Origin: a virus
DNA length: 39,448 bases
Strand: one strand, 5' to 3'
Virus record (IMG/VR): IMGVR_UViG_3300035156_000364
Coordinates: 1 to 39,448 of that record
The translations under genes were made by a program, and so were the position numbers. Shown one piece after another: positions 7,650-35,337 of this stretch (positions within the stretch are counted from its first letter, which is position 1; each line of letters begins with the position of its first letter). Below the pieces are notes generated by a model, which saw nothing but the letters and a program-made list of their open reading frames with translations, was not told where the DNA came from and made no database searches.

Positions 7650-8545
7650 CAGAAATCCAGTACCAAAGAATCGACAACAGCAAATTGCGCCAGGCGCGCC
7701 AGCAGCGCTGCCGTCTCGATGCCGTTCTCCGCATAGATCGCCAGCAGCGATTCGGCGCCGGCGCGACCAAGCGTGTACAGCGTGCTTTCGGCCTCGACCG
7801 AAAAGCTCACGATGGAGATCTCGCCGTTGCGTGTCACCGAATAGGATCCCGGCAGCACGGTCACCAGGTGCGGCACCAGGCCCAGTCCGCTATCGAGCGG
7901 CATGTCGAACGACAGCCCGCCCTTGCGAACCAGGCGATAGAACCAGATGGTCCAGATGCGCATCTGCGCCGGCGTCAGGATGATCGTGCAGGTGAAGTCC
8001 TGCACGCCGCCCATCCAGTCCTGGCCGAACTGCCCGAAGCTGCCGGCCACGTCGCCGCGCATCGAGCCGGGGATGCCGCCATGGCCGTAGCCGGACACGA
8101 CCGGAGACAGCCCCAGGGGGATCGCCAGCGGTGTCAATCCGTTGACTGCTACCTCGGCAGCCACTTGCGCGTCCGACAGCGCGTAGACCCCGCTGGTGGT
8201 CTCCACGGTGAAGTCGATGAAGACCAGCGCTCCACCCTCATGCGAGACTGAGTACGAGCCGGGCACAACGTTCACGACGTGCGGCCGCAAGCCGAGCCCG
8301 CTGTCGAGCGGCATCGCGAACGCAAGCGCGCCCTTTGCAATGCTGTACAGGTAGAACGCGCTCCACACCGAGTACTGCAGTTTGTCGAGCACCAGGCGGC
8401 AGGCGTGCTGTTGCGTGCCGCGATCCCAGTTCGTCACGAAACGCCCGCGGCCGCCGGCGACATCGACGCGATCGACACCGCCAGGAGCGCCTTGGCTGTA
8501 GCCGCTGACGATCGGCGCCATACCCTGGGGAATGGTTATCGTCAT
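7649..8545 (-). CDS. Tail protein made of two tandem related domains
   Basis: A 298-aa protein directly after the tape measure, where a distal tail protein is expected. The first half (about residues 5-120) and the second half (about 138-255) are clearly homologous: both contain IP.G..P.VSGY, a DVAG.-GQF/GRF block, an aromatic tract before KG.L.F.MPLDSGLGL.PH.V.V.PGSYSV, and end in YAL/YTL. The C-terminal 40 residues are unique. I do not know a firm family name; a tail-tip ring built of two like domains is a reasonable inference. It overlaps the tape measure stop by ATGA. Confidence 0.7.
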   Translation of the reverse strand: MTITIPQGMAPIVSGYSQGAPGGVDRVDVAGGRGRFVTNWDRGTQQHACRLVLDKLQYSVWSAFYLYSIAKGALAFAMPLDSGLGLRPHVVNVVPGSYSVSHEGGALVFIDFTVETTSGVYALSDAQVAAEVAVNGLTPLAIPLGLSPVVSGYGHGGIPGSMRGDVAGSFGQFGQDWMGGVQDFTCTIILTPAQMRIWTIWFYRLVRKGGLSFDMPLDSGLGLVPHLVTVLPGSYSVTRNGEISIVSFSVEAESTLYTLGRAGAESLLAIYAENGIETAALLARLAQFAVVDSLVLDF

Positions 8546-11364
8546 CCGCGCGTCCTTGGTGTATTGAAATTGCGGCTCATCGAACGCGATGTCTTGCTGT
8601 TCGGGTCACCCATCTGGCTGGCCGTGGCCGCCACCGCTTCGGAAATGATCAACGCGCGCTCGGTCGAACTGATCTGGCGCTCCTCCACCTGGGCGATGCG
8701 GGCCGACGTGTTGTTGACGATGGTGTACTTCGTCGGGCCGTTGTTGGCGCCAGCGCCGCCAGCTGACTGCCCCAGGCGCCGGATCGTGTCGGCGTGCTGC
8801 GCCGGCAGCACCATCTCCTTTTCGTGCAGCTGGGTCAGCGGATTGATGCCGGCAGGGATGTCCATGCCGCCTTCAGCGGACAGGACGCTGATGCTGGCGG
8901 CCGCGGTCGCGAGGCCAGCCATGACCTCTGCAGCTGCCACTGCACCTGCTGCCGCCTCCGGTGCCAGGAACGGGCCGACAACCGGGATAGCGGCCGTCGA
9001 CGCGAACGCGTTGAGACCCGCCATAGCAACCATCGCCTGCGACTGGGCGGCAATGGTCCCTGCGAATGCGCCAGCGCTGACCTTGTCAACGAGCAGCTTC
9101 TGGATGCCGATCTTGATAAAGGCAGCGATGAAGCTCTCCGCGATGCTAAGCGCCACGCTCTTAAGTGAATCGCCCAGGCTCTCACCCGTGACGATCGTCT
9201 TGGCGATGCTGTTCGACACACCGTCTGCCATTCCTTCGAACGCATTGGTGAAAGCCGCAGACGACTGTCCAGCGACGTCCTGCGCATGCGTCAGGTAGTT
9301 TGCCCATGCATCCTGCGCGCCGAGCAGCCAGTCGCCCTGGGCGGCGTCCAGCTTCGCCGTGCGGTCGTTGTATGCGGCCACCTCGGCGGCATAGGTATCC
9401 GTCGCGATCTGCAAGTACGTGTCGTATTGCTTTTGCGTGATCTGGTTGTTGCGCAAACTGGTATCGAGCGCATCGACCTTGCTGTCCTTGGCGTCCGACA
9501 TCTGGCCCCGCGCGGACTGATCCTGGCGGAACTTGTCACCTTTTCCGAGACCGGCGATAGTGCGGCCATCCTGCTTTTTGATCGTCGCGAGGTATTGTTC
9601 TGCGGCTTTGGTCGCGTCGACGTAGGATTGGGCGATACGACGATTCGCCGCTTCCTCCTGAATCGTGTTGACTTCGATTGCTGTTACGGCATCCGTGCGC
9701 AGCTTGTCGATTTTCCCCTGGGCCTCGGCAATCTTTTTTTGGTTATCGATCTTTTGCTTACCGATCGCACTGTCCTTCTGGAGCCGGTCGATTTCCGCCT
9801 GCAGCTCATCTTCCTGCGCCGAGCTACTGAGGCGAATGAAGCCCAGCTTCGCATCGTAGTAGTCCTTGTCATCGGTCAAACCGGCCGAACGGAGCGTTTC
9901 CATCACGCGCTCCGCATTCGAATATGCCTCGATCTGAGCCTGTCCGGCTTTCCTGATGTTCTCCAGGTCAAGGCCGAGCTGAGCGTTTGCCAGCTTCGCA
10001 GCCTCTTTGGCTTTTGACGTATCTGCAACGCCGTTGTAGGTCAGTACCGGCTTGGCTGGCTCCTTGGATTCTGCACCGGGCAGCTTGTTCTCTGCATTGA
10101 ATTGCGCGATCTGGCGTTCTGCGATTCTCTTCTTCAAGCCAGTCGAAAAGAGCGGCCTGTCTTCAATCGCTTTCATTGCGGCTTGGGCATCTTTGCCGAC
10201 CTGAATTCCTTCGCTAAATTCACCGTGAAGCGCGAGCAGCAGGCCCTTGTTACTCGCCGCTTTTGCCAACTGCACCTCCTCGATGGCACGGCTCACTGCC
10301 GTAAAACCGTCGACAAGGCTGGCGACAGAAAGCGCCGCAGTATCGGCCCACTCGGCGATGCTGGTGATATTCTTCAGATCCGTCGCGCTTTTCCCAACGC
10401 CAGTTATCTGCTTCGCGAATTCTACTGTCGCACCAGTCAGGTCGGTCAGCGACGGCAGCAATTCCGTTGCGATCGACTGCGCATAAAGCGATACCTGCGT
10501 CCGCATTTTTGCCTGCTTGTCCGCGTAATCGTCGGCCAGCGCAATTTGCTTGTCGGTGAGGATCAGCTGGCGCCCGCCCTCCTGGCCCAGCTCTTTCAAG
10601 AACGGTAACGCTTCGGCGCCAGCCTTGCCAAGCAAAGCGATTGCCACGTCGCCCTTCACTGCGCCGTCAGCGAAACCGTTGAGCGCTTTTGCGACCGCTT
10701 CCAGGCGATCAGCAGCCGCCATTTTTTTCAGATCCGCAAGGTTCAGCCCCAGCGCCTTCACGGCCATGCCTGCCGCCGCAGAATCGTCGTCGACGCCTAC
10801 CAGGTTCTTCGACAGCTTGATGGCCAGATCCGCGACGGCAGACATCTCGATGCCCGCGGTACCGGCCGCAACTGCCAGCGAGGCAATATTCTCCGCGCTG
10901 TCGCCGGTTTTCTCGGACATGTCCTGAAAGTCGCCGGCACCTTTCACCAGGTGATCGAAGGCGCCATATGCGGCAATTGCGGCAGCCCCAATAGCCAAGA
11001 CGCCGATACGAACGTTCTTCGCGATACTGGCGCTGCGGGCTTCCGCTTCTGCTGCGCGCGTAGCAGCATCGCGTTGCGCGTCGGCCTGCGCATGCGCAGC
11101 GTCAGCCGCTGCCAGTTGAGCGACCGTGGCGCCCCGCAGCGCCAGGCGGTACTGATCCGCTTGACGGGTCGACATGCCCATTGTCGCGTTCTGGACCTGC
11201 AGGCTCTTCACGTAGTTGTCGATCGATTTCGATGCGCGGCCTGATGCCTGCACTGCTACGTCACCCATACCAGCAATCGACCGCTTGGCGTCCTCGATCC
11301 CGACCTTCAACTTTGTGGCGTCGGCAGATACCTCAATAACGCCGCGGCCGATAGTTTCGCTCAT
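8542..11364 (-). CDS. Tape measure protein
   Basis: A 940-aa protein that sets tail length and is ejected with DNA. It has long Ala/Lys/Asp-rich helical and coiled-coil stretches, an N-terminal ADATKLKVGIEDAKRSI-type start typical of lambda H-like proteins, a hydrophobic segment near residues 117-138, and a hydrophobic Ala/Gly-rich region near 770-840. At about 0.15 nm per residue (known scaling) it predicts a tail near 140 nm. There is no Shine-Dalgarno between the terminator hairpin (11376-11397) and the ATG; only a four-codon leader ATG at 11373 overlaps the start. Confidence 0.92.
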   Translation of the reverse strand: MSETIGRGVIEVSADATKLKVGIEDAKRSIAGMGDVAVQASGRASKSIDNYVKSLQVQNATMGMSTRQADQYRLALRGATVAQLAAADAAHAQADAQRDAATRAAEAEARSASIAKNVRIGVLAIGAAAIAAYGAFDHLVKGAGDFQDMSEKTGDSAENIASLAVAAGTAGIEMSAVADLAIKLSKNLVGVDDDSAAAGMAVKALGLNLADLKKMAAADRLEAVAKALNGFADGAVKGDVAIALLGKAGAEALPFLKELGQEGGRQLILTDKQIALADDYADKQAKMRTQVSLYAQSIATELLPSLTDLTGATVEFAKQITGVGKSATDLKNITSIAEWADTAALSVASLVDGFTAVSRAIEEVQLAKAASNKGLLLALHGEFSEGIQVGKDAQAAMKAIEDRPLFSTGLKKRIAERQIAQFNAENKLPGAESKEPAKPVLTYNGVADTSKAKEAAKLANAQLGLDLENIRKAGQAQIEAYSNAERVMETLRSAGLTDDKDYYDAKLGFIRLSSSAQEDELQAEIDRLQKDSAIGKQKIDNQKKIAEAQGKIDKLRTDAVTAIEVNTIQEEAANRRIAQSYVDATKAAEQYLATIKKQDGRTIAGLGKGDKFRQDQSARGQMSDAKDSKVDALDTSLRNNQITQKQYDTYLQIATDTYAAEVAAYNDRTAKLDAAQGDWLLGAQDAWANYLTHAQDVAGQSSAAFTNAFEGMADGVSNSIAKTIVTGESLGDSLKSVALSIAESFIAAFIKIGIQKLLVDKVSAGAFAGTIAAQSQAMVAMAGLNAFASTAAIPVVGPFLAPEAAAGAVAAAEVMAGLATAAASISVLSAEGGMDIPAGINPLTQLHEKEMVLPAQHADTIRRLGQSAGGAGANNGPTKYTIVNNTSARIAQVEERQISSTERALIISEAVAATASQMGDPNSKTSRSMSRNFNTPRTRG

Positions 11365-11421: not shown

Positions 11422-11808
11422 TTACTCGCGCTCTGGCTGTCGTTGCCCCAGCGTATTCGCGCTATAGGCAGTGTCGCTAAGATGGTAATTTGTCAACCTA
11501 CCACTCGCATCGAAAGAGAATGTTGCGGAATTGATTTTCATATCCGAACCGCCAGCGAAAAGACCGACCACCGGAACGAAAGTCGCGCCTCGAATCGAAG
11601 TATTGATGGAGGCGTAGGAAATGATGCGACCGTCCATGCTAGAAGTTGCACTGATCGGCTTACCAAGCGCAGCGACGACCTCTGCCTCTGTGGTGACTCC
11701 CTTCTGGAACCCAGCAACGATCTGCGTAGTAATCGGGTTGTAAGGCCGTGGCGCAGCGCAGCCGCCGACGCCAAGGCCAAGGATTACGCACAAAGCAAGT
11801 GTTCGCAT
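11422..11808 (-). CDS. Small lipoprotein, BamE/SmpA-like
   Basis: A 128-aa lipoprotein. It has a signal peptide (residues 1-16), lipobox VGGC with Cys17 as the lipidation site, then a BamE/OmlA-like block (FQKGVTTEAEVVAALGKP) and beta-rich remainder (INSATFSFDASGRLTNY). GGAGGCGAT gives a strong ribosome site. It interrupts the usual tail order between the chaperone extension and the tape measure, in a locally AT-richer gap. Phage lipoproteins are known to block superinfection (for example T5 Llp) or act as o-spanins; which applies here cannot be told. It is probably a moron acquired into the tail operon. Confidence 0.75.
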   Translation of the reverse strand: MRTLALCVILGLGVGGCAAPRPYNPITTQIVAGFQKGVTTEAEVVAALGKPISATSSMDGRIISYASINTSIRGATFVPVVGLFAGGSDMKINSATFSFDASGRLTNYHLSDTAYSANTLGQRQPERE

Positions 11809-11846: not shown

Positions 11847-12164
11847 TTAGTTTTTCGGCTCGTGCATTTTTGTTAGAGCCGCATCCTCCATCGTACGAAC
11901 GCCTTCGAACACCTCCGCTCGATCAGCAGCAGAGATACCCGTCAACCGCATCACTGCCGGGAGCGCGCCGTAGTCAAGCCCGGTAGCGCCGGCCATGCCC
12001 ACCCGCCATTGCGTGCTCATGGCAATGAATACGCTGATCGTCGGAATATTGTCCGGCCAAACTTCAACCGGTGGCCCGCTTGCCTCTTCCACGGTCAACC
12101 CCCAGGCAGCCGCCTCCGCCGCGCTCGGCGCCTTCGAGTAGAGCGCGACGGCGGCGGCCTTTAG
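11847..12164 (-). CDS. DUF1799 frameshift extension of tail chaperone
   Basis: This open frame lies -1 relative to the tail chaperone and has no convincing start of its own (only a TTG at 12098 with no useful ribosome site). Read from the slippery site it adds 105 residues, ending in the DUF1799 signature (VWPDN, STQWRVGMAGATGLDY, VMRLTGI, RTMEDAAL). The predicted fusion product is 103 + 105 = 208 aa, the equivalent of lambda gpGT, which binds the tape measure and tail tube during assembly. Annotated as a separate gene it would be misread. Confidence 0.82.
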   Translation of the reverse strand, partial: LKAAAVALYSKAPSAAEAAAWGLTVEEASGPPVEVWPDNIPTISVFIAMSTQWRVGMAGATGLDYGALPAVMRLTGISAADRAEVFEGVRTMEDAALTKMHEPKN

Positions 12165-12170
12165 TTTTTT
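12109..12170 (-). promoter_or_regulatory. Programmed -1 ribosomal frameshift signal
   Basis: Minus-strand order: slippery heptamer A-AAA-AAC (12170-12164) in the chaperone frame, a 5-nt spacer that includes the zero-frame stop TAA, then an 18-nt arm (12158-12141), a 14-nt loop and an 18-nt arm (12126-12109). The arms pair at 17 of 18 positions, counting one G-U and excluding one G-A mismatch. Heptamer, spacing and stem are all textbook for -1 frameshifting. Confidence 0.88.
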
Positions 12171-12472
12171 ACTTTGGCCTGCGACAGTTCTTCGATGTAC
12201 TTTTTATAAATCGCCACCGCGGCTCCGATGTAATTCTGGAGCATCGTCTCGACCGACTCCGGCGTCAACGCTTCACAAAAGTCCCATCCCGACGCCATTT
12301 CGAGCAACGCTTCCGCGTCGGACCGGCCCTCACGCGATGAGAGGAAGGCCGCCAACTCATCCTTGGTGCGGTGCTTGAACGTGAATTCGACGTCGATCGG
12401 CGTGCTGCCGGCGACCGGGATCGATACAGGCGCTTTAAACGTCGGCGCCGCGACGATTGAGAGCTTCGCCAT
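12161..12472 (-). CDS. Tail assembly chaperone (gpG-like)
   Basis: A 103-aa protein between tail tube and tape measure, the position of the gpG/gpGT chaperone in siphoviruses. It has a beta-rich N-terminus (FKAPVSIPVAGSTPIDVEFTFKHRTKDEL) followed by helices (ALLEMASGWDF, ESVETMLQNYIGAAVAIYKKYIEEL), as in the DUF1789/TAC families. It ends KVKN just after the slippery A-AAA-AAC, so a fraction of ribosomes should continue into the DUF1799 frame. The start lies 2 nt after the tail tube stop. Confidence 0.85.
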   Translation of the reverse strand: MAKLSIVAAPTFKAPVSIPVAGSTPIDVEFTFKHRTKDELAAFLSSREGRSDAEALLEMASGWDFCEALTPESVETMLQNYIGAAVAIYKKYIEELSQAKVKN

Positions 12473-12474
12473 GA

Positions 12475-13116
12475 TTACGACGCGTAGCGCACTGGCTCGG
12501 CCAGCAGGGACAGCGTCACTTCACACGCCATGATCTCGTTGACGGTCAGCGATGGCGTCTTGTTGAGCGAGACGTAGGCGTTGTACAAGATCTTGGCCAG
12601 CGACGGCAGATCGATACGTACGCCGCGCGGAAGGCGGTCATCATTGGCCGCCGATGCCAGCTGGTAACCAGGCAGCGTCGGATCGTCACCCACGCTGAAG
12701 GTCAGGCCGGCCGCGCTCTTGACAGTCGGGATACGTTTCTGCGAATCGCCTTCCAGCAGCTGGTATTCCAGGAACTGCTGTTCGCCGCCGGACGAACTGG
12801 ACGAGAGAATCTGCGACAGCTGTGTCCAGGTCAGGATCTTGCGGAAGGCGCCGACACCAGCACCGGCCGGATAGATGTTCGTCAGCGTCGTGTCGTAGCC
12901 TTCCAGCACGAACGTGGTACCAGTGGCGGAGAGGACGCGTACAACCTTGCCGGACAGACGCGACCATCCGGAAGTGATCTCGACGTAATCGCCCGCCGCA
13001 AGCGTATTGGCTGCGGTGACGACGGCGCCTGCAGCATTGCTGATGCCGGTAATCGGGGCGGATGCTGCGTAGGTGGCGGCCAGCGAAATGATGGCACCAT
13101 TTGGAAGAGTAATCAT
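12475..13116 (-). CDS. Major tail tube protein
   Basis: A 213-aa protein upstream of the chaperone and downstream of the tail completion genes, the standard place of the tail tube subunit. Beta-strand-rich sequence includes LAAGDYVEITSGWSRLSGKVVRV, QQFLEYQLLEGDSQKRIPTVKSA and a long C-terminal block RGVRIDLPSLAKILYNAYVSL, consistent with the phage_tail_3 type tube fold. AAGGT precedes the ATG. A strong hairpin terminator stands 21 nt upstream. Confidence 0.82.
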   Translation of the reverse strand: MITLPNGAIISLAATYAASAPITGISNAAGAVVTAANTLAAGDYVEITSGWSRLSGKVVRVLSATGTTFVLEGYDTTLTNIYPAGAGVGAFRKILTWTQLSQILSSSSSGGEQQFLEYQLLEGDSQKRIPTVKSAAGLTFSVGDDPTLPGYQLASAANDDRLPRGVRIDLPSLAKILYNAYVSLNKTPSLTVNEIMACEVTLSLLAEPVRYAS

Positions 13117-14363: not shown

Positions 14364-14923
14364 CCGTACACTCCCATCGGATCGAGCAGCCGCTCAATGA
14401 AGCGGCTCGGCTCGGTGTCCTTGAATTCCCGATCGGCAGGGTCCCATTGCTGGGCCAGGCGCGCCAAGACGTACAACTTCACGCAGGCCGGCGTCGACGC
14501 GCTGTCCGGGCCATGCCCCGCGATGAAATCGACGGACACCACATTCAGGCCGCAGGCCGTGCGCGGCCAGCTGCGGCCGGACCCGGGAACAACGTACCCC
14601 GGCTCGGTCACCTTGTCGGCATAGTAGTCCTGCGGATCGAGCGTCTGCTCCGCGCCATCCGGATCGAAAAACTTGACGCTCTCCACGCTGAATGTCGGCG
14701 CGGCCAGGCGGATAGCATCGGGGAAGCGGTCGAGCGTCACGCGCATTGGACGGTTGATGAAGCACATGCCCGTTTGATGCTCTGCCTCAGCAACGATGCC
14801 GTTGATGTAGGTAGTCAGCAACGGATCGAGCGTGCTGTCGTCCTGCTCGATGCGCAGATTGGTTTTGGCTTCGGCCAGCGATACTGCCAATTCGGCAGGT
14901 TCTGCCAACTTCTTCAGGGTCAT
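14360..14923 (-). CDS. gp6-like head-tail connector
   Basis: A 187-aa protein with the HK97 gp6/PF05135 helical pattern: SLAEAKTNLRIEQDDSTLDPLLTTYINGIVAEAEHQTG, an NRPMRVTLDRFP strand, and the C-terminal CVKLYVLARLAQQW helix. It forms the ring under the portal. Its ATG overlaps the stop of the LamG-repeat gene by four bases, so that gene is co-translated with the connector cluster. Confidence 0.88.
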   Translation of the reverse strand: MTLKKLAEPAELAVSLAEAKTNLRIEQDDSTLDPLLTTYINGIVAEAEHQTGMCFINRPMRVTLDRFPDAIRLAAPTFSVESVKFFDPDGAEQTLDPQDYYADKVTEPGYVVPGSGRSWPRTACGLNVVSVDFIAGHGPDSASTPACVKLYVLARLAQQWDPADREFKDTEPSRFIERLLDPMGVYG

Positions 14924-16590
14924 CGCTTGTTCCTTTGCAAAGCCGCCGGCCGCGCCGTGGCGGCAGCGGTCGGGCGGTGGATGGATTCGGTCTGCTGGGC
15001 GGCATAGCCGGTTCCTGCCGGCGCACGCGCATATTCGATTTGCTGGCCATATAGCAGCCTGGCCGGCCCGCCCGTGACGGCCAGCGCACCAGCCACACCG
15101 CGCAGGCGTCTCGCTGCCCGCAGGCCGGCGCCAGTGCCGACCAGGGCAAGCGCACCGCCGACGGCAACAAGCGAGTACGTCGGACTCGTCGACGCAGAAT
15201 CGGGCGCGTAATGCAGCGTCGCGGTCACGCTTGAAAACGAGAACAGCGCGGCAGCTACCGGCAGGCGGCGCGCGGCGCGCAACCCTGCTGAGCCAACACC
15301 AGTGGCGAAGGAACCGGCAGTTGCTGGCAGGCGGCGCGCTGCTACCACGGTTGCCGGCCTGCCTACGGCGCTGTATGCGCCGGCCGCCACGACCAGACGC
15401 CGCGCCAGCTGCATGCGCCCGGTGGCAACCGTCAGCAGGAACAGGCCGCTGCCACCGGTCAGGGTGTAAGTGGCGCCGGTACCAGCTTGTGCAGACGTGT
15501 AGACAAATGTCGCCGCACTGCCGGCGAGGGCGAATGCGCTAGAGACGGCGGTTAGCTTGCGGGCTGCGAGCAACTTGGCAGCGGTACCGGACAACGCGAT
15601 GGCGCCTACAGCAGCTGGCAAGCGCCGGGCAGCCCTGAGGACGGCGACCGTGGTGGTGAGTGACAGTGCACCTGGTGCTGCTGTGATCCGACGCGCAGCT
15701 TGTAGTGACGCGGCCGTTGGTGTCAGTGCGTAGCCGGCGGCGGCAGCAGCGAGACGCCGGATGCCAATCAAACGTGCGCTGACTGAGGTCAAGGCAAAGC
15801 TTCCGGTGCCGAGTGCTAGAGTGTACTTCGCCCCTGTTACTGCAGCAGCCACCCACAGCCGGCGCGGCGGCGCTCTGAATACCTGCCAAGGATTCGCCGA
15901 CAGTGACGCAACTTCCGCCGGCGACAGGCACCGCCGAAAGATCAGAACCAGTGATTGCCCTGCACCAGTTAACGTTTCACCGCCCCCAACGCCCCGAGCA
16001 AACAGCGCCAATCGATCGTTGCTGGTACTAAAGCCATTCCCCTGTGCAGCAGACGCAGACAGATTGCCGTCCAGATATATGCGCGCCGTCGCAAGGTCAA
16101 ACGTTGCGGCGATAGGCAGGGGGCGATTTGCCAGGGGCGTCAGAGCCCCGGCAACGCTCGCGGTAACTGCACTGGTCGGGCTACCACCAGTTCCATACGT
16201 GATCGCCTGCGAGCCGCTGTTGATGGCAAGGCGATAATCGTGCGAGCTGGAAACACGCCCAAGGAATGAGCCATCACATGAACCGGGGGTGGCGATCATC
16301 GCAAGCGAAAACAGTGTCTGCCCTGGCGCTCCACTAAATTTCAGGTCATTACGTGCCGCGTATTCAATTTGGCCAGTGCCAACCCCGAGCATCTGGCGCC
16401 CGCTTGCGCTGACAGACCGGGTCAGGCGTGTACCAGATTCAACGCCAAAGACGCTGGCTGATAAGTCGAGCGCCTCCTGTGCAGCGGACCACGCAAAAAC
16501 CAAACCTTGCGTGATCGGGTTGCTGCGGTCAATCGGCGCGGCCTGCTGGGGCTGCTGCGTAAAACGCGAAGGCAGGATCAACTCTGCCAT
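14920..16590 (-). CDS. LamG-like virion protein with ~11 Ala-Leu repeats
   Basis: A 556-aa protein. Residues about 25-235 resemble a LamG/concanavalin-like sandwich (NPITQGLVFAWS, LFSLAMIATPG, ARIYLDGNLSAS, FRRCLSPAEVASLSANPWQVF). Residues about 255-525 are roughly 11 units of about 22 residues with the pattern G-A-hydrophobic-A-L-T/S-G...A-x-L...AARRL-x-A. A basic tail follows. It lies between the small head genes and the connectors, overlapping the latter, so it is probably a structural or decoration protein with carbohydrate binding. Function is an inference from architecture. Confidence 0.7.
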   Translation of the reverse strand: MAELILPSRFTQQPQQAAPIDRSNPITQGLVFAWSAAQEALDLSASVFGVESGTRLTRSVSASGRQMLGVGTGQIEYAARNDLKFSGAPGQTLFSLAMIATPGSCDGSFLGRVSSSHDYRLAINSGSQAITYGTGGSPTSAVTASVAGALTPLANRPLPIAATFDLATARIYLDGNLSASAAQGNGFSTSNDRLALFARGVGGGETLTGAGQSLVLIFRRCLSPAEVASLSANPWQVFRAPPRRLWVAAAVTGAKYTLALGTGSFALTSVSARLIGIRRLAAAAAGYALTPTAASLQAARRITAAPGALSLTTTVAVLRAARRLPAAVGAIALSGTAAKLLAARKLTAVSSAFALAGSAATFVYTSAQAGTGATYTLTGGSGLFLLTVATGRMQLARRLVVAAGAYSAVGRPATVVAARRLPATAGSFATGVGSAGLRAARRLPVAAALFSFSSVTATLHYAPDSASTSPTYSLVAVGGALALVGTGAGLRAARRLRGVAGALAVTGGPARLLYGQQIEYARAPAGTGYAAQQTESIHRPTAAATARPAALQRNKR

Positions 16591-33189: not shown

Positions 33190-35337
33190 ATGAGCAAGTC
33201 GAAAAAATCACCACAAGCAGCACCGGAAACATCCCCGCCAATCGTCACCGCCGGTCTGTACGGCGACTACGAACTGTCCCGCATTCGCATCTCGCCGGAC
33301 AACCGCAAGCGCTTCAATGAAGCCGCGTTGAACGAACTGGCTGAGAGCATCAAGGCCATCGGCATCGCCCAGCCGATCCTGATGCGCCCGGTCACGCCAA
33401 CCGCCGACGCGCCGGCGGACTTCGAGATCGTCGCCGGTGAGCGCCGCTTCCGCGCCTCGAAGATCGCCGGCCGCGACACCATCCCAGCCGTTGTACGCGA
33501 CCTCAGCGACATCGATGCTGCCAAGCTGCGCATCCTGGAGAACCTCCAGCGCGAAGACCCGCATCCGATCGAGGAGGCCGAGGGCTACCAGCTGCTGATG
33601 CTGCAGCACGGCTACAACGCCGACCAGCTGGCCGACGAGATCAAGAAGAGCCGCGCTTATGTCTACGGCCGCTTGAAGCTGCGCGCCCTGACGACCGAGG
33701 TGCGCGAGATGGTTTTTAACGATGTGATCCCCACGTCGACGGCGTTGCTCATTGCGCGAATCCCGGTACCGGCGCTGCAATTGAAGGCGCTGCACGCCAT
33801 CATCCGGCCGGATACGCTCTCAGGTGAGCAACTGTCCGTGCGGCGCGCCGCCGAATACATCCAGCACAACTTCATGCTGGACCTGACCACGGCTATCTTC
33901 AAAACTACAGACGCCAAGCTGGTACCGGCAGCCGGCCCATGCACAACATGCCCAAAGCGTGCAGGCAATGACCCGCTCGTCTTCGAAGGCATTCGTGCAG
34001 ACGTCTGCACGGACCCGGGATGCTTTACAGAAAAGAAGGCGGCGCATCATGCCGCCATCGTCGAGATGGCCGCCAAGAACGGTATCCCGGTCGCTGAGGG
34101 CGAGGAGCGGAGCCAGATTCTGTTGCACCGTTGGGTATCTAGCGCCGAGTACGTGCGTCCTGATGCGAACGTATTTCAATTTCAGCGGAATGCGCCGGCA
34201 ACGAAAAATAGCGGCACGCCCCTGTCGCTCCTCGGTACTGAGGGGCTACCAGCTATTGCGCTGTACACCAAGGACGACGACGGCACCACGCTGCCCTGGT
34301 ACCGTCGGTCCGACATTCAGGCTGCTCTCGAATCAGTAGGTGCATGCGAGACGGTCGAGCAGCATGCAGAGCGCACTCGTGGCGCGTTGAAAACCATCAT
34401 CACGCCGCCTCAGGAACCTAAAGCCGGCGCAGCAGCATTACCGGATCCGTACGTGAAGATCGCCCAGGACGAGAACGCCTTCCGGTTGGCGCTGTACAAG
34501 AAGCTGCGCGCTAAGGGCGCCGCTAGTGGCTTCAGCCTGGATTCATTACGCGCGTTCACGAAGCGCGCTGTCTGGATGATGCCGCTACCGGACGACTTGC
34601 TTGGCGACGTCTATGATTTCGACACCACCACCGAAACCACCATTTGCGAATACGTCGACCAGGCCGGCCTGCCAGAAATTCAGCTGCTGCTTATCGACCT
34701 GGTCGTCGGCGAGGCGCTGGCGACGGACCCGGCTTCAATAAAGAATGGCAGCTGCATCCGCGACGACTTCCGCACCGTGTTGCGCATGGCTGCCCATGAA
34801 GGCATCGATGCCGACGCGCTGCGCGAGGAGTTGTTTCCGACACCGATCAATGTCGACGACGCGACACCAACCGCCCTGGCTGCATTTATCACCAAGTACC
34901 CGCACCGGCTCGCCGAGCTGACGGACGTCGTGCTCAAGCATCCGCGCGGCGACCTGGTGGGCATGCTGGAACGCGCCGCCAAAGAAGCCGGCTACGTGTA
35001 CGCCCGGGGCGGCTTCGAGAAGCTGCCGCCGCTGCTGGTCGGCGTCGATCTGGCTGCGCCGGCAGCCGATATCTGCCCATCACTGAGTACAACCATCGTT
35101 GACCAGGGAGACGCAGGCACGGCCGGCGACGAATTCCTCGGAGAGATGATGGAAGCGCCGGCGCCGGTGCCGAAAAAGCAGCCCAAGGGCAAAGCTGCGA
35201 AAGACAAAACTGTGCTTGCACCGCCCGCGGCCTGGCCGTTCCCGAAATCAAGCGACGGCGTGCGGGCCACCACGCCAGCAGCATCCGCCGACCCAATCCC
35301 GCAAGTCACCGAAACCGCCCAGGAGATTCCAGCATGA
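33190..35337 (+). CDS. ParB/Spo0J-like protein with long C-terminal extension
   Basis: A 715-aa protein, much longer than standard ParB (about 300). Residues about 26-125 form the ParB N-terminal CTPase fold with GERRFRAS (83-90) and ENLQRED (117-123). Residues about 135-190 are an HTH (NADQLADEIKKSRAYVYGRLKL). A Cys cluster (CTTCPKR, CTDPGCF, about 247-285) may bind zinc. The long C-terminus is unrecognised and ends in a Pro/Lys-rich tail. GGAG precedes the ATG. A 16-bp palindrome lies inside the gene at 33995-34010. It may act in replication, partition-like spreading or regulation; no ParA is present. Confidence 0.85.
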   Translation: MSKSKKSPQAAPETSPPIVTAGLYGDYELSRIRISPDNRKRFNEAALNELAESIKAIGIAQPILMRPVTPTADAPADFEIVAGERRFRASKIAGRDTIPAVVRDLSDIDAAKLRILENLQREDPHPIEEAEGYQLLMLQHGYNADQLADEIKKSRAYVYGRLKLRALTTEVREMVFNDVIPTSTALLIARIPVPALQLKALHAIIRPDTLSGEQLSVRRAAEYIQHNFMLDLTTAIFKTTDAKLVPAAGPCTTCPKRAGNDPLVFEGIRADVCTDPGCFTEKKAAHHAAIVEMAAKNGIPVAEGEERSQILLHRWVSSAEYVRPDANVFQFQRNAPATKNSGTPLSLLGTEGLPAIALYTKDDDGTTLPWYRRSDIQAALESVGACETVEQHAERTRGALKTIITPPQEPKAGAAALPDPYVKIAQDENAFRLALYKKLRAKGAASGFSLDSLRAFTKRAVWMMPLPDDLLGDVYDFDTTTETTICEYVDQAGLPEIQLLLIDLVVGEALATDPASIKNGSCIRDDFRTVLRMAAHEGIDADALREELFPTPINVDDATPTALAAFITKYPHRLAELTDVVLKHPRGDLVGMLERAAKEAGYVYARGGFEKLPPLLVGVDLAAPAADICPSLSTTIVDQGDAGTAGDEFLGEMMEAPAPVPKKQPKGKAAKDKTVLAPPAAWPFPKSSDGVRATTPAASADPIPQVTETAQEIPA
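33995..34010. repeat. 16-bp perfect palindrome GTGCAGACGTCTGCAC (copy 3)
   Basis: A perfect palindrome inside the ParB-like coding region, covering the codons just before the CTDPGCF motif. It matches the sites at 699-714 and 24750-24765 at 15 of 16. Two weaker relatives at 7085-7100 and 15489-15504 match at 14 of 16. ParB proteins commonly have sites near or within their own genes. Confidence 0.6.

Follow-up and report, generated by a model that had tools for sequence, protein, structure and literature searches.

How is the DUF1799 domain expressed when its reading frame lies next to the end of a tail assembly chaperone gene, out of register with it and with no credible start codon of its own? 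The question is raised by the window analyzed here, a stretch of 39,448 nucleotides from the IMG/VR virus record IMGVR_UViG_3300035156_000364, in which the cassette and its tail gene neighbors are all encoded on the minus strand. Our data indicate that a chaperone-DUF1799 fusion would be produced by programmed -1 ribosomal frameshifting of the lambda G/GT type, a reading to which we assign a probability of roughly 0.95 from sequence comparison. Frameshifting in tail chaperones as such is established. What the comparison settles is the most likely mode of expression of DUF1799, which is omitted or half-annotated in some records.

Gene content of the cassette

The chaperone ORF matched the Phage_TAC_4 profile (PF08748, E 3.5e-26), and the -1 frame that follows it matched the DUF1799 profile (PF08809, E 4.2e-29). 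A single protein family, PHROG 17368 (213 aa), spans both, with its first half aligning to the chaperone and its second half to the -1 frame. The chaperone ORF lies between the tail tube and tape measure genes, with a lipoprotein-like ORF inserted before the latter. A fold like that of the solved tail chaperones of the HK97 gp13 type was sought; the models had mean pLDDT values of 81.5 and 79.9, and neither the sequence search nor the structure search of the PDB returned a match at E ≤ 0.001. The features of the cassette are collected in Table 1.

Table 1. Features of the chaperone-DUF1799 cassette and flanking tail genes
Feature	Position	Strand	Remarks
Major tail tube protein (Phage_tail_3)	12475..13116	-	upstream of the chaperone
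Tail assembly chaperone ORF, zero frame (Phage_TAC_4)	12161..12472	-	103 aa, C-terminus ...AKVKN*
Slippery heptamer A_AAA_AAC	12164..12170	-	same site in relatives
Zero-frame stop TAA	12161..12163	-	intercodon, flush with the heptamer
5′ arm of presumed stimulatory stem	12141..12158	-	
Loop	12127..12140	-	14 nt
3′ arm of stem	12109..12126	-	
-1 frame extension, DUF1799 domain	11847..12164	-	105 aa + stop
TTG	12096..12098	-	first possible (not credible) DUF1799 start; -1 frame codon 23
Tape measure protein	8542..11364	-	downstream

The lipoprotein-like ORF (11422-11808, minus strand, 128 aa, phrog_3135) separates DUF1799 from the tape measure gene. Of the loci retrieved, many of which hold little downstream DNA, only L002/L029, L030 and L031/L174 contained a relative, at the equivalent place in L002, L030 and L031, and the ORF looks like an insertion in the clade of the window. 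Elsewhere in the window, the structural gene block includes a gene (14920-16590, minus strand) whose 556-aa product carries a Laminin_G_3 domain, of the concanavalin A-like lectin type. A 715-aa ParB_N/HTH_ParB protein (33190-35337, plus strand) and a phage integrase (38438-39448, minus strand) are also encoded; the phage is likely to be temperate.

Slip site and reading frames

The zero frame ends with GTA AAA AAC TAA, which places the heptamer in the X_XXY_YYZ register required of a slippery site, and the -1 frame then runs for 105 codons to its stop. The initial annotation had proposed an in-frame A_AAA_AAC, a TAA immediately behind it and a fusion of 208 aa, and all three were borne out, the last as the sum of 103 and 105 residues. 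It had also held that the downstream frame lacks a credible start. From its upstream stop through codon 22 the -1 frame contains no ATG, GTG or TTG, so that the earliest candidate is indeed the TTG at 12098, at codon 23. The heptamer alone was set aside as proof: A_AAA_AAC occurs three times in the window against 2.7 expected, and since this frequency is at chance level the motif was not counted as evidence by itself.

The last zero-frame residue is asparagine, and the sequence at the junction therefore depends on the timing of the slip. A tandem slip in the P and A sites, or a slip after translocation, would give the junction V-K-N-L-K, while a slip before the second codon is decoded would give V-K-K-L-K.

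Conservation of the arrangement among relatives

Loci were gathered by homology to the chaperone or to DUF1799 from viral contigs, species genomes and 19 named phages. The viral-contig loci comprised 27 loci, the best 80 of 115, and the best 80 of 589 confirmed among at least 600 candidates; 45 loci came from species genomes. The named phages were chosen by hand from listed records (1056 records match DUF1799 and 758 the chaperone), some of them for labels hinting at a chaperone annotation. The resulting 252 sequences (251 loci and the window) included 240 with both domains, of which 207 were distinct; these are distinct in sequence yet related, and the counts below ignore kinship. Twelve of the 252 had no chaperone match and were excluded from the frame count; 11 of these 12 carry AAAAAAC or GGGAAAC, in any register, upstream of the DUF1799 domain.

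DUF1799 lies in the -1 frame relative to the chaperone in all 207 distinct loci, including all 19 of the sampled named phages; the +1 relation and a single continuous frame were each found in none. Together with the two profile matches and the family that spans both, this uniform relation supports the proposal of the initial annotation that a -1 frameshift joins the chaperone to DUF1799. In 206 of the 207, no stop interrupts the -1 frame from upstream of the slip site into DUF1799; the exception is L091, which has one. A heptamer was found in 199 loci. It is flush with the zero-frame stop in 183 (A_AAA_AAC in 92, G_GGA_AAC in 89 and G_GGA_AAT in 2), one codon before the stop in 14 and three codons before it in 2. 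G_GGA_AAC accounts for 102 of the 207 loci, with 13 of these sites one to three codons ahead of the stop. The eight loci without a heptamer in the last codons scanned consist of seven with a terminal A_AAA or A_AAG tetramer, flush with the stop in three, and L214. Both L091 and L214 are counted in the 207, the former among the flush loci and the latter outside them. In L214 an in-frame TAG (L214:1364-1366) interrupts the chaperone gene and is followed by a normal C-terminus and a flush AAAAAAC site.

An obligatory flush stop was dropped as a description, given the 16 loci in which the stop comes one to three codons later and the seven tetramer sites. A stop flush with an AAC-type heptamer is nevertheless the rule, with few exceptions, in the sampled family, and is its less-described trait. 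The literature searched, largely open-access, yielded no description of the flush stop as a family trait, and for DUF1799 it yielded only the phage VarioGold, where, in the accessible part of that report, the domain is a separate gene.

Codon-like evolution of the -1 frame junction

The first 22 codons of the extension, all of which lie upstream of the TTG at 12098, evolve as codons of the -1 frame. Over this stretch in 182 flush loci, the mean column entropy was 2.14 in the -1 frame (one of whose columns, a leucine, is forced by the stop) compared to 2.74 and 2.88 in the other two frames, and the +1 frame contains a stop in 83 of the 182. When the window was compared with relatives that share at least 65% identity with it across these 66 nt, substitutions fell at positions 3, 2 and 1 of the -1 frame codons in the ratio 242:138:73. 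In the 16 loci whose heptamer is not flush, the -1 frame still starts with CTC (Leu), and nothing forces that there. As for start codons in the scanned stretch, 62 of the 183 flush loci, the window included, have no ATG, GTG or TTG through codon 22 (61 of 182 when L091 is left out), and the other 121 have some start-like codon within the -1 frame stretch scanned.

Two features of the junction were rejected as evidence. In flush loci the leucine at extension residue 1 and the A or G that opens codon 2 are both forced by the stop, and the absence of -1 stops in the 182 loci follows from their having been chosen for an open -1 frame.

RNA structure downstream of the slip site

A stable RNA structure is present 3′ of the slip site, and its stimulatory role is presumed. 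The 18-position stem of the initial annotation was recovered with 17 positions paired, one of them as U-G, and with one G-A left unpaired. The 5-nt spacer given there stands when read as TAAAG (12163-12159); the predicted fold adds one outer G-U pair to the stem, so that the spacer may also be read as 4 nt. The 60 nt that start at 12163 had the lowest folding energy (-39.4 kcal/mol) of 15,756 stretches of 60 nt, taken on both strands of the window in 5-nt steps, and the stretches ranked second and third overlap it. When the 80 nt past the slip site were compared with synonymous-codon shuffles of the -1 frame, 2 of 100 shuffles folded as well (z -1.99), and dinucleotide shuffles gave z values of -2.24 for 69 nt and -1.59 for 114 nt. 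The stem was absent from a whole-window inverted-repeat search that used 9-base exact seeds, its longest Watson-Crick run being shorter than the seed, and Rfam returned no family at the gathering threshold.

The stem had also been described as unusually long and GC-rich. This holds for the window and a few near relatives, but other loci have different or weak hairpins: the stem is nearly complete in 4 of the 182 other flush loci, with 17 of 18 folded pairs in L030 and L040 and 16 of 18 in L002 and L031. The long stem occurs in the same loci as the phrog_3135 ORF. L040 has it too, and there DUF1799 is directly followed by the tape measure gene. From 94 distinct loci, 60 representatives were taken that share less than about 85% identity across 90 nt; in these, the 80 nt that follow the heptamer had a mean z of -1.49 against synonymous shuffles, 31 falling below -1.5 and 29 failing to reach that value. 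With 60-nt windows the mean z was -1.23 at the slip site and -0.73 at +15, compared to 0.00 to -0.55 at 13 other positions along both genes, which shows that a weak background is present. The first pair lies 4-9 nt past the heptamer in 35 of the 60.

Compensatory changes, which had been suggested as a check on the stem, gave a mixed answer. In eight sequences that were hand-picked partly for good pairing, and are therefore biased towards the stem, the number of paired cells was matched by 0 of 500 shuffles and the covariation score by 6 of 500, but pairs changed on both sides were at least as numerous in 208 of 500, and a +3 slide of the 3′ arm gave a higher score (0.216 compared to 0.145). 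In 30 distinct sequences of at least 58% protein identity, 5 of 500 shuffles matched the paired cells and 23 matched the score, and the +3 slide scored nearly the same (0.119 compared to 0.128). Covariation of this exact stem is weak, and the case for structure rests on the energy tests. The structure seems to have been re-made in the course of evolution rather than kept pair by pair.

Proposed mechanism and alternative explanations

Most ribosomes would end the 103-aa chaperone at the TAA. A minority, held up by the stem ahead, would slip back one base on A_AAA_AAC and read the -1 frame through DUF1799, giving the 208-aa fusion. By analogy with lambda, the short form may coat the tape measure protein, and the long form, made less often, may recruit the tail tube protein through its DUF1799 part, which is likely to act like the T domain of lambda. 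We infer the slippage itself, its rate and this division of labor between the two products. Several points weigh against the frameshift reading: the start-like codons in 121 of the 183 flush loci, the 29 representatives that do not reach z -1.5, the covariation that a +3 slide equals or surpasses, and the low shift-proneness of A_AAA_AAC in E. coli. DUF1799 would thereby gain a likely role, as the counterpart of lambda T.

The domain could instead be translated alone, by initiation or termination-coupled re-initiation at the TTG at 12098, with the heptamer incidental; an independent product from this TTG was what the initial annotation had named as the outcome that would speak against frameshifting. 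A GGAGG at 12117-12113 precedes the TTG by 14 nt, and several GenBank entries list the downstream ORF separately. However, that spacing is long, the GGAGG is inside the 3′ arm of the stem, and a start at the TTG would drop the 22 residues whose codons evolve in the -1 frame. Since 62 of the 183 flush loci also offer no start through codon 22, such a start is disfavored, and we consider separate translation highly improbable. Runs of A can serve as substrates for polymerase slippage, and the six consecutive A in the window are a possible one; a single A added to the mRNA would produce the same frame change. The 102 loci that use G_GGA_AAC have no comparable run and yet keep the register for a tandem slip, and both the stem and the codon register speak for a ribosomal event, which makes transcriptional slippage extremely improbable as the source of the fusion.

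A different matter is whether, within ribosomal frameshifting, the stop codon contributes to the mechanism. If the slip took place mainly after translocation, in the E and P sites while the A site already holds the stop, release factors would compete with it and set the ratio of the two chaperone forms; the peptide would still read V-K-N-L-K, but its production would be sensitive to release factors. The stop is flush with the heptamer or tetramer in most loci, and nine different amino acids, for the most part K, R, I and T, occur as extension residue 2 across the 183 flush loci, so conservation of this residue cannot alone account for the stop. With the HIV heptamer in bacteria, a stop at the equivalent place cut shifting and extra RF2 abolished it, and Rous sarcoma and barley yellow dwarf viruses are named as natural -1 cases, according to the available sections of that study (PMC4373837). 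On the other side, flushness is not required, as the stop comes one codon later in 14 loci and three codons later in 2, and it may merely fix the C-terminus of the chaperone. This refinement of the frameshift reading is possible but doubtful. We suggest only tentatively that the Phage_TAC_4/DUF1799 modules could form a large natural bacterial -1 class in which the stop is a working part and the balance between short and long forms is tuned by the supply of release factors. The family in any case provides many natural sites at which to probe -1 slippage with a stop already in the A site.

Comparison with known systems

The flush A_AAA_AAC and G_GGA_AAC heptamers of this family are of the kind most slippery on mammalian ribosomes. 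In E. coli, A_AAA_AAC is much less shift-prone than A_AAA_AAG, as stated in the consulted part of a review. The same A_AAA_AAC operates in bacteria in IS1 insA-insB' (A6C), for which the portion of the source seen reports about 2% frameshifting, and there the -1 frame continues with C-TC and hence, as at the junction predicted for the window, with leucine. IS1 differs in encoding a transposase and in that the E. coli K-12 IS1A has five sense codons between the heptamer and the insA stop, which rules it out as a precedent for the flush stop. The flush position in the window also contrasts with the mean heptamer-to-stop distances, 26 nt for SEA-PHAGES and 36 nt for the Xu set, given in the accessible part of the PRFect report.

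Joined expression of the Phage_TAC_4/DUF1799 pair is already annotated in GenBank. A joined CDS is given in 4 of the 19 sampled phages (Sushi, Skenny, Sazh and Smarc2, the last three with the term 'frameshift product'); these phages were hand-picked, and 4 of 19 thus says nothing about the general frequency of such annotation. In the GenBank records behind L112, L121 and L113, those of HK639 and YP10S2 have no gene over DUF1799, and that of KarlBarth has just one small ORF, which covers the domain in part. The tape measure chaperone of the Drexlerviridae (Klebsiella phage Sushi, Citrobacter phage Sazh) belongs by profile to the same two families and is given as a joined CDS. In the weberviruses Sushi and Skenny the heptamer is replaced by a tetramer, A_AAA, one codon ahead of the stop, whereas Sazh has the flush AAAAAAC of the window.

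A fusion from a flush AAAAAAC is already predicted for Acinetobacter phage Loki, where the motif stands right before the chaperone stop in gp12-gp13 and a fusion with the next gene was proposed (PMC5313236). IME_AB3 shares the flush AAAAAAC and the predicted fusion; both phages are likened to the window by motif, not by family assignment, and in the available text of that paper the prediction comes without stem or comparative analysis alongside (PMC5313236).

A further close parallel is lambda G/GT. It differs from the window in its protein families, which are other than Phage_TAC_4 and DUF1799, and in its heptamer, GGGAAAG, which is of the AAG type compared to the AAC type of the window. In both, the chaperone adjoins the tape measure gene. 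The shift is in the -1 direction in lambda and would be so in the window, and the short and extended chaperones serve the tape measure and tail tube proteins in lambda, as described in the section of the review available, and would do so in the window.
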